From Sideroxydans sp. CL21 (lineage in GTDB: Bacteria; Pseudomonadota; Gammaproteobacteria; Burkholderiales; Gallionellaceae): 64,000 bases of DNA. Positions 12,147 through 13,933 of the stretch are shown here, piece by piece. A program made the position numbers and the translations under genes. Location of the stretch: contig NZ_LR699166.1 in the NCBI RefSeq assembly GCF_902459525.1, positions 1,155,501 to 1,219,500 on the forward strand, written 5' to 3'. The notes below the pieces were generated by a model, which was not told where the DNA came from, made no database searches, and was given only the letters and a program-made list of their open reading frames with translations. Every line of letters begins with the position of its first letter. The stretch's first letter is position 1.

Positions 12147-13817
12147 ATGGTACAAGGCCAATATGTAATGTCCATGCTCCGCGTGAGCAAGATCGTTCCC
12201 CCCAAGCGTCAGATCATCAAGGATATCTCCCTCAGCTTCTTCCCCGGCGCCAAGATCGGCCTGCTGGGTCTGAACGGCTCGGGTAAATCCACCGTGCTGC
12301 GCATCATGGCGCAGCAGGACAAGGAATACGACGGCGAAGTGCAATGGCTGCCCAATATGAAGATTGGCTACCTGCCGCAGGAGCCCGTGCTCGACCCGGC
12401 CAAGACCGTGCGCCAGGAAGTCGAATCTGCCCTGGGCGAAGTAATGGAAGCACAAGCCAAGCTGGATGCGGTGTATGCCGCCTATGCCGAGCCGGATGCC
12501 GACTTCGACGCGCTCGCCGCCGAGCAGGCCCGCCTGGAAAACATCATCGCCGCAAGCGGTAGCGATGCCTCGCACCAGATGGAGATCGCCGCCGATGCGC
12601 TGCGCCTGCCGGAATGGGATGCCGTGGTCAAAAACCTTTCCGGCGGCGAGAAGCGCCGCGTGGCGCTGTGCAAGCTGCTGCTGGAAAAGCCCGACATGCT
12701 GCTGCTGGACGAGCCCACCAACCACCTGGATGCAGAATCGGTGGAATGGCTGGAACAATTCCTGGTGCGCTTCCCCGGCACCGTGGTCGCCGTCACCCAC
12801 GATCGCTACTTCCTCGACAACGCCGCCGAATGGATCCTCGAACTCGACCGCGGGCACGGCATCCCCTGGAAGGGCAACTACTCAAGCTGGCTGGAACAAA
12901 AGGGCGAGCGACTGGCGCAGGAGCAGAAGCAACTCGACGCGCATTCAAAAGCGATGAAGCAGGAACTGGAATGGGTGCGCCAGAACCCCAAAGCGCGCCA
13001 GGCCAAATCCAAGGCGCGTATCGCCCGCTTTGAAGAGCTCAATTCGCAGGAACACCAGGCACGCAACGAAACGCAGGAAATCTTCATTCCCGTCGGCGAA
13101 CGTCTGGGTAACGAAGTCATCGAATTCGACGGCGTGAGCAAAGCCTATGGCGACCGCCTGCTGATCGACAACCTCAGCTTCAAGATCCCGCCCGGCGCCA
13201 TCGTAGGCATCATCGGCCCCAACGGTGCGGGTAAATCCACCCTGTTCCGCATGATCACTGGTAAGGAAAAACCGGACAGCGGCGAAGTGAAGATCGGCCA
13301 GACCGTGAAGATCGCCTTCGTCGACCAATCGCGCGAAGGGCTGGAAAACGACAAAACCGTGTTCGACGCCATCTCCGGCGGCAACGAGATTCTCACCGTG
13401 GGCAAATACGAAACCCCGGCGCGCGCCTACATCGGCCGCTTCAACTTCAAGGGCGCGGACCAGGGCAAGATCGTCGGCCAACTCTCCGGCGGTGAACGCG
13501 GCCGCCTGCACCTGGCGCAGACCCTGATCTCCGGCGGCAACGTGCTGCTGCTCGACGAACCCTCCAACGACCTCGACGTGGAAACCCTGCGCGCGCTCGA
13601 AGATGCCCTGCTCGAATTCGCCGGCTGCGTCGCCGTCATCTCCCACGACCGCTGGTTCCTCGACCGCATCGCCACCCACATCCTCGCCTGCGAAGGCGAT
13701 TCCAAGTGGACGTTCTTTGATGGCAACTATCAGGAATATGAGGCTGATAAACGTAAACGGTTAGGCGAGGAAGGAGCCAAACCTAAACGCATACGTTACA
13801 AACCTATCAGCCGATAG
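12147..13817 (+). CDS. ettA: Energy-dependent translational throttle protein EttA (ABC-F)
   Basis: This 556-residue ABC-F ATPase gates the ribosomal E site according to ATP/ADP ratio. Two nucleotide-binding domains are readable: P-loops GLNGSGKST and GPNGAGKST, signatures LSGGEKRR and LSGGERGR, and Walker B motifs LLLDEPTNHLD and LLLDEPSNDLD. The start MVQGQYVMSMLRVSKIVPPKR matches the EttA N-terminus, and the length is that of the family. From about 13717 the codon use shifts from GC-ending to A/T-ending codons (TTT, GAT, TAT, AAA, CGT, TTA). The last 14 residues are encoded a second time downstream, at 13889-13933, with different codons. Confidence 0.96.
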   Translation: MVQGQYVMSMLRVSKIVPPKRQIIKDISLSFFPGAKIGLLGLNGSGKSTVLRIMAQQDKEYDGEVQWLPNMKIGYLPQEPVLDPAKTVRQEVESALGEVMEAQAKLDAVYAAYAEPDADFDALAAEQARLENIIAASGSDASHQMEIAADALRLPEWDAVVKNLSGGEKRRVALCKLLLEKPDMLLLDEPTNHLDAESVEWLEQFLVRFPGTVVAVTHDRYFLDNAAEWILELDRGHGIPWKGNYSSWLEQKGERLAQEQKQLDAHSKAMKQELEWVRQNPKARQAKSKARIARFEELNSQEHQARNETQEIFIPVGERLGNEVIEFDGVSKAYGDRLLIDNLSFKIPPGAIVGIIGPNGAGKSTLFRMITGKEKPDSGEVKIGQTVKIAFVDQSREGLENDKTVFDAISGGNEILTVGKYETPARAYIGRFNFKGADQGKIVGQLSGGERGRLHLAQTLISGGNVLLLDEPSNDLDVETLRALEDALLEFAGCVAVISHDRWFLDRIATHILACEGDSKWTFFDGNYQEYEADKRKRLGEEGAKPKRIRYKPISR

Positions 13818-13838
13818 AAACAAGAGGAACGGTTGGGT

Positions 13839-13889
13839 GATAACCAGCGACTTAGCGAGCGTTGTTTGCTCGCTTAGTCGAATGGCTAG
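13839..13889 (+). repeat. Stem-loop repeat, copy 1
   Basis: This 51-base unit begins GATAACCAGCGACTT and ends GCTTAGTCGAATGGCTAG. CGACTTAGCGAGC and GCTCGCTTAGTCG form a 13-bp stem with one mismatch around GTTGTTT. A second copy in the same orientation is at 19105-19149 with a different but still paired inner stem. It lies directly before the duplicated ettA tail. Confidence 0.8.
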
Positions 13890-13933
13890 GCGCGAAGCCT
13901 AAGCGGATTCGGTATAAGCCTATTAGTCGGTAG
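13889..13933 (+). pseudogene. Displaced second copy of the ettA 3' end
   Basis: This 45-base stretch encodes the peptide GAKPKRIRYKPISR and a TAG stop, exactly as the true ettA end at 13773-13817 does. Twelve of the 15 codons differ from that copy, always at the third base. There is no start codon or upstream coding sequence, so it is not a gene. It looks like a gene end displaced by an integration event. Confidence 0.85.

Follow-up and report, generated by a model that had tools for sequence, protein, structure and literature searches.

Repeated exchange of the ettA 3′ end for foreign copies in Gallionellaceae

Why should a gene carry its own 3′ end twice, with almost every codon of one copy written differently? 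In the window (the whole 64-kb stretch of DNA analysed, which sits within a 3.77-Mb genome), the peptide GAKPKRIRYKPISR followed by TAG is encoded at positions 13773–13817, where it closes ettA, and again at 13889–13933. Translation of the two tails shows that 12 of 15 codons are unlike and that every change is synonymous. The duplicate had been pointed out in a sequence-only reading of the region and it is real: a degenerate pattern for the peptide has just these two sites in the 64 kb, and 100 dinucleotide shuffles gave no match. A repeat finder returned no direct repeat between 13500 and 15000 because the two tails have diverged too far, and a tRNA scan and an Rfam scan (gathering thresholds) of the window found nothing. 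Comparison with relatives provides an answer. In Gallionellaceae, foreign copies coding for an unchanged protein end repeatedly take the place of the end of ettA and often bring a small toxin–antitoxin or defence cassette with them; the window holds one such event. The features of the locus are given in Table 1.

Table 1. Features of the ettA locus and of the variable stretch behind it (window coordinates)
Feature	Position	Strand	Basis
ettA, ABC-F translation factor, intact	12147..13817	+	556 codons; open frame; protein 97–99% identical to closest genus mates
Imported end of ettA, in use (third base of codon 533 to stop)	13745..13817	+	Synonymous differences from six genus mates at 24/25 codons
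Displaced native ettA end, left part, with one-base deletion	13819..13839	+	Aligned by eye to native GACAAGCGGAAGCGGTTGGGTG; same arrangement in 8/127 family genomes
Dispersed hairpin repeat, without its last bases, inside the displaced end	13840..13889	.	30/34 genus genomes match a query holding the repeat; 30 copies with flanks
Displaced native ettA end, right part, through stop codon	13890..13933	+	Up to 43/45 bases as in genus mates; 44/45 as in best family match, G464
First gene of older layer, 183 aa	13964..14515	+	No Pfam match; in G047 too, the homologue (70%) begins about 30 nt past a displaced ettA end
IrrE/M78 peptidase domain protein, probable antitoxin-like partner	14640..15839	+	PF06114, E 7.8e-15; in G434 a homologue lies 222 nt behind ettA
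DUF4411 protein, probable partner of the IrrE/M78 protein	15836..16378	+	PF14367, E 4.2e-32; adjoins IrrE homologue in G434
Phytochelatin-synthase-like gene, right side of variable stretch	17083..17835	+	PF05023

The sequence-only reading had proposed looking for relatives with a single uninterrupted tail. These exist: the ettA end is present in 27 of the 34 genomes of the genus, and the tail pattern matches twice only in the genome of the window. Three kinds of tail are found among the 27: (i) type A, with one consensus and few changes, in 23 genomes; (ii) type B, in the window and G007; and (iii) mosaics of A and B, in G011 and G041. The downstream copy in the window is of type A and shares up to 43 of 45 bases with genus mates, contrary to the earlier view that neither tail is host-like. 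The upstream tail matches genus mates at 30–34 of 45 bases, the exception being G007 with 43. Over the last 75 nt of the active tail, 24 of 25 codons differ from those of six genus mates with the amino acids unchanged, whereas for five of these mates the 300 nt that precede the import show 4, 4, 11, 12 and 15 differences (G042, the remaining one, has 157 over these 300 nt and was left out as a partial ettA match). The juxtaposition of such a tail with nearly unchanged sequence indicates that the active tail was imported, starting at 13745, the third base of codon 533, where divergence from the genus sets in. A start at 13717 had been proposed from a shift to A/T-ending codons, but the codons from there to the import are ordinary within the genus: the ten codons ahead of the import differ at 0–4 of 30 bases in 26 genus mates. 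Judged by these alignments, the downstream copy is the native end and the upstream end now in use is foreign. The proposal that the 3′ part of ettA received a foreign end, with EttA kept whole and the old end left behind, is thereby supported. Two successive insertions had also been offered as an option; successive insertions do occur in the family, but they are unnecessary for the window because its downstream copy is the native tail of the genus.

The foreign tail was sought across the order, where the window was the only match among 399 genomes, and in viral contigs, which gave no match to the foreign-tail pattern or to the degenerate tail pattern. The window's tail type is present in nine GTDB contigs, labelled Gallionella (two), Gallionellaceae (one), Nitrosomonadales bacterium (four), Proteobacteria bacterium (one) and Methylophilaceae (one). 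In an uncultured Methylophilaceae contig (L276), an ettA of another family has this tail type as its single end, and its lineage is a possible donor.

The near-complete recoding of the active tail had been interpreted as possibly protective. Selection for the recoding itself would mean that it keeps the restored gene from being cut again or from recombining with the displaced copy. In keeping with this idea, the 24 of 25 codons that separate the window from its genus mates are the maximum among 7,898 pairs of active tails in the family, and G011 and G041 resemble products of recombination between the two tail types. Divergence among the tails is, however, continuous, with a mean fraction of differing codons of 0.48, and over the last 15 codons at least 12 of 15 differ in 11.7% of 7,860 ettA tail pairs. 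Displaced copies in other genomes, for example G470, G501, G513 and G532, stay 86–94% identical to the active end, and no cutting enzyme is known at the ettA site. Note also that 110 of the 127 active tails encode one of two nearly identical peptides. By these comparisons the recoding in the window is the extreme of an ordinary, continuous divergence among alleles and not a class apart. A protective function is unneeded, and we regard selection for recoding as very improbable.

The displaced copy reaches further left than the sequence-only reading had recognized: the segment 13819–13839 resembles the native tail, and a single base lies between this worn piece and the active TAG. The two native pieces are separated by a hairpin repeat. 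A 141-base query containing the repeat found matches in 30 of 34 genus genomes, with 25 matches in G011, one of which is ettA; the matches outside ettA, among those listed, fall on the hairpin. The unit is about 60 bp long, ends in TAGTTYCATC and is present at many unrelated sites (30 flanked copies, L031–L060), and the copy in the window has 50 bp. We read it as a passenger. The layout of the element is ATAACCAGCGACTT, loop, CTTAGTCGAATGGCTAGTAGTTYCATC, and its many copies per genome lie at varied sites, repeatedly within displaced ettA ends. The compact allele formed by the two tails and the hairpin is found at 8 of 127 family loci in five genera (G000, G007, G220, G431, G443, G452, G521 and G526; the count is 1 of 127 with a strict expression and 8 of 127 with a looser one) and in one further contig, L282. 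No native ettA piece was found 3′ of the hairpin in G007 and G521. In the compact allele the joint is worn with age, and the left native piece was aligned visually. An assembly error was considered as the cause of the double tail and set aside, since eight genomes of five genera carry the allele.

Larger insertions at the same place in ettA, another suggestion of the earlier reading, are found in other members of the family. The ettA end and sequence downstream of it were obtained for 127 of 158 family genomes, with 132 to 26,183 bases downstream (median 12.5 kb); many of these genomes are fragmented, and contig ends hide layers. Displaced ettA ends are present in 22 of the 127 (G000, G047, G146, G220, G311, G420, G431, G436, G443, G452, G470, G472, G492, G494, G501, G505, G506, G513, G516, G526, G528 and G532), not counting matches to the ATPase core of other ABC genes. 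They lie 0.1–12 kb downstream, often with toxin–antitoxin or defence cassettes intervening, and are short or worn in G047, G436 and G443. Extra copies of the ettA end are found on other contigs in G530 and G528, and G497 had one extra copy in a first search that a stricter pattern did not recover. In the G528 case (L143, at about 5.5–5.7 kb and in reverse orientation), an ettA 3′ fragment with other genes behind it lies on a contig that does not hold ettA itself, and is perhaps a moved unit. For the sister ABC-F protein Uup, used as a control, 1 of 115 genomes has a further match to the C-terminus at E 1e-5, compared with 10 of 126 for ettA at the stricter E 1e-20; the control is imperfect in that the Uup query is less conserved (about 50–60% identity in other genera), so that short displaced pieces are missed more easily for Uup than for ettA.

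Several loci contain more than one displaced end: three in G505, G513 and G526 and two in G452 and G506, spaced by about 0.75–2.1 kb. For each of 28 displaced ends, the following 1,500 bases were compared with the sequence behind all intact ettA stops. For 12 of the 28, the sequence that follows matches the post-ettA sequence of another genome, with the match starting within 260 nt on both sides and, in three clear cases, at the first bases past the stop. The second layer of G506 matches the first layer of G472 and G527, its third matches the first of G543, and the second layer of G505 matches the first of G476 (95%). G047, also one of the 12, matches the window, whose own displaced end is only 116 nt from the stop. 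Taken with the neighbours shared with G047 and with G434, where the IrrE/DUF4411 pair lies directly behind ettA, these matches suggest that the displaced ends once closed the gene and that the layers are stratified, with the newest beside ettA. Some of the shared neighbours may be chance, because toxin–antitoxin cassettes are common.

The cassettes often consist of just one or two genes. Their content was scanned in 200 of 240 proteins taken from the first two mechanical frames after ettA, some of which may not be genes. The other 40 frames were left out by hand from their coordinates; they were short or on the opposite strand, or were both frames of nine same-genus loci whose first frame has the length of one that was kept. 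Among the 25 commonest Pfam families listed for each set, PIN (16), DUF2442 (11), AAA_21 (6), DUF4160 (at least 4) and IrrE peptidase (at least 4) recur, and the matches listed include one HindIII and one Thoeris protein. The PADLOC matches listed include two DRT reverse transcriptases and two PtuA-like ATPases. No endonuclease gene is among the 25 commonest Pfam families listed for either of the two cargo sets (110 and 90 proteins, with 50 and 39 rarer families besides). A phytochelatin-synthase-like gene is present 3.3–8.6 kb behind ettA in 9 of the 77 loci with at least 9 kb of sequence.

How would such a locus arise? We think it likely that DNA accretes at the 3′ end of ettA, by recombination of foreign ettA-end DNA with the resident gene. 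Incoming DNA would carry the ettA end of another strain, usually with a one- or two-gene cassette, and recombine with the resident ettA. The left crossover would lie within the homologous coding region, so that EttA would stay whole with the donor's end, and the right side would join the resident tail at a variable point, so that the old end and everything behind it would be shifted downstream. Repeats of this event would stack units of ettA tail plus cassette, the newest adjoining ettA. The window would be a small case, in which a foreign tail trailed by just a few bases was placed in the native tail near codon 533/534; the hairpin repeat would lie in the native tail, by now useless, with older cassettes following. 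Uptake may occur by natural transformation, and the chemistry of the joint may be homology-facilitated illegitimate recombination. The mosaics and the sharp change in identity show the left crossover, the anatomy of the locus shows the displacement on the right, and the building of stacks by repetition is supported in the relatives.

Two statistics across 117 genomes bear on the left crossover. The mean synonymous distance is 0.50 in the last 25 codons, compared with 0.35–0.42 for the rest of ettA, and the distance in the tail correlates at 0.38 with that in the rest of the gene, compared with 0.63–0.72 for six other intervals. This loss of correlation is confined to the tail and, with the mosaics, supports recombination within the constant part of the gene. 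The active tail has a foreign-type Ile codon in 13 of 22 genomes with displaced ends, compared with 14 of 105 without (Fisher test, kinship ignored). On the right side, the retained native piece begins anywhere from 33 to about 230 nt before the stop in the family (about 590 nt in G119), and there is thus no fixed core. The varying joints, with no integrase found close by among the PF00589 matches listed, point to recombination within ettA and an irregular joint on the right.

Other observations count against accretion through irregular joints. TGACCCC or TGTCCCC is located 14–24 nt before 8 of 31 joints, compared with 50 of 2,520 random points; one cassette has a nearly identical joint in G492, G526 and G513; and the two joints of the window nearly coincide, as they would in a precise insertion. 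Accretion also gives no account of why ettA is used rather than other genes. The right joints are not simply random, and, given the motif and the recurrent joint, the right terminus may be a defined one in at least some cassettes. Longer forms of the motif, which we take to be REP-like, end several toxin–antitoxin cassettes, and the DNA behind them differs. The motifs TTGCGATGCTGACCCC and CGTGGTCTGTCCCC are seen at the right ends of several cassettes, directly before the displaced ettA end (L171, L135, L209, L139, L226 and L196). A mobile cassette that dispenses with an integrase is conceivable, if rather doubtful: the coding ettA tail would serve as a portable homology arm with a REP-like terminus opposite, and host recombination would stack defence and toxin–antitoxin modules behind a gene for a translation factor, which would stay intact throughout. 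The cassettes could also be circles that use the ettA tail as attachment site and, with a recombinase supplied in trans, integrate at a core inside the tail, restoring the gene and leaving the old tail at the far end in the manner of integrase islands. The single address and orientation, the newest-first order, the restored gene end and the joint repeated in three genomes are all compatible with this, and circles excised from a stack already in place would each bring along a variable joint of their own. Nevertheless, a search of 24 genomes confined to PF00589 found no gene within about 15 kb downstream of ettA among the matches listed, to E about 1e-12, except for one in G146 that is about 10 kb from ettA and XerC/D-like by score. 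Apart from the gene in G146, the recombinase-bearing islands that the earlier reading had suggested looking for are not seen near the stacks among these matches. Mosaic breakpoints at different codons and the small size of the cassettes also speak against integration in trans, which we consider unlikely. That the ettA end was duplicated in place and then diverged might be suggested by the near adjacency of the window's two tails, but it is the active tail and not the spare that departs from the genus beside 300 nearly unchanged bases, and the same foreign tail type occurs in other genera, making duplication extremely improbable.

Accretion at ettA can be compared with several known systems. 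Integron cassette arrays are also built of small cassettes that enter at a single insertion point, newest first; unlike them, the ettA stacks have no integrase gene beside them (PF00589, among the matches listed), and what repeats in them is a coding tail whose length varies. In the mobile ORFs of fungal mitochondria, such as that at atp6 of Allomyces, a housekeeping gene receives a foreign C-terminus along with an extra ORF, its resident end is displaced, and an endonuclease gene is carried, whereas none is among the Pfam families listed for the ettA cargo. Close parallels are in the T6SS effector genes of Vibrio cholerae and in Rhs loci, where, according to Kirchberger et al. (2017, PMC5361080), modules shift old 3′ ends back, arrays or strings of orphan ends form, no integrase is known, and homologous plus homology-facilitated illegitimate recombination is proposed. 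As there, the newcomer at ettA is located behind a constant 5′ part and old 3′ ends are kept in series behind the active one. In those loci, however, the new 3′ end is a different toxin and immunity genes are retained (PMC5361080), whereas at ettA the incoming end leaves the peptide unchanged, the old ends persist just as scars and the anchor is a housekeeping translation factor. The Escherichia coli prophage e14 restores the end of icd and leaves the old end (165 bp, 12 nt exchanges) on its far side with the frame intact, and it has a putative integrase gene and a single insertion point after icd codon 362 (PMC11148124). The ettA end is likewise restored by the newcomer with the old end displaced, but no recombinase is found near, the joints vary and the inserts are far smaller. 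SGI1 (PMC2297512) uses a fixed 18-bp attachment site at the 3′ end of thdF, has an integrase and can form tandem arrays; the ettA case shares the use of a gene's 3′ end and the arrays, but has no constant attachment core and no integrase found nearby. No report of ettA, yjjK or an ABC-F gene as a genomic-island or insertion hotspot was found in one open-access literature collection. Displacement of gene ends is thus known from T6SS and Rhs loci, and the use of a housekeeping gene as anchor appears to be new.

Each displaced ettA end would be a record of a past arrival, and the stacks would let the order and source of toxin–antitoxin and defence genes be read in uncultured bacteria. They also make ettA a testable case of how small cassettes lacking a recombinase reach a fixed address, a question discussed in the literature for toxin loci.

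Outside the family, more than one ettA match is present in 7 of the 307 genomes of the order that have a match. Extra ends lie behind ettA at the loci of G119, G236 and G263, and G151, G153 and G168 have a second ettA copy on another contig. In L263 (G263, from another family of the order), ettA ends are found at about 1.0, 8.5 and 10.4 kb, the two displaced ends being 7.5 and 9.4 kb behind ettA. At about 8.0 kb in L264 (G119), a third ettA remnant fuses a mid-protein part (VIKNLSGGEKRR) to the tail.
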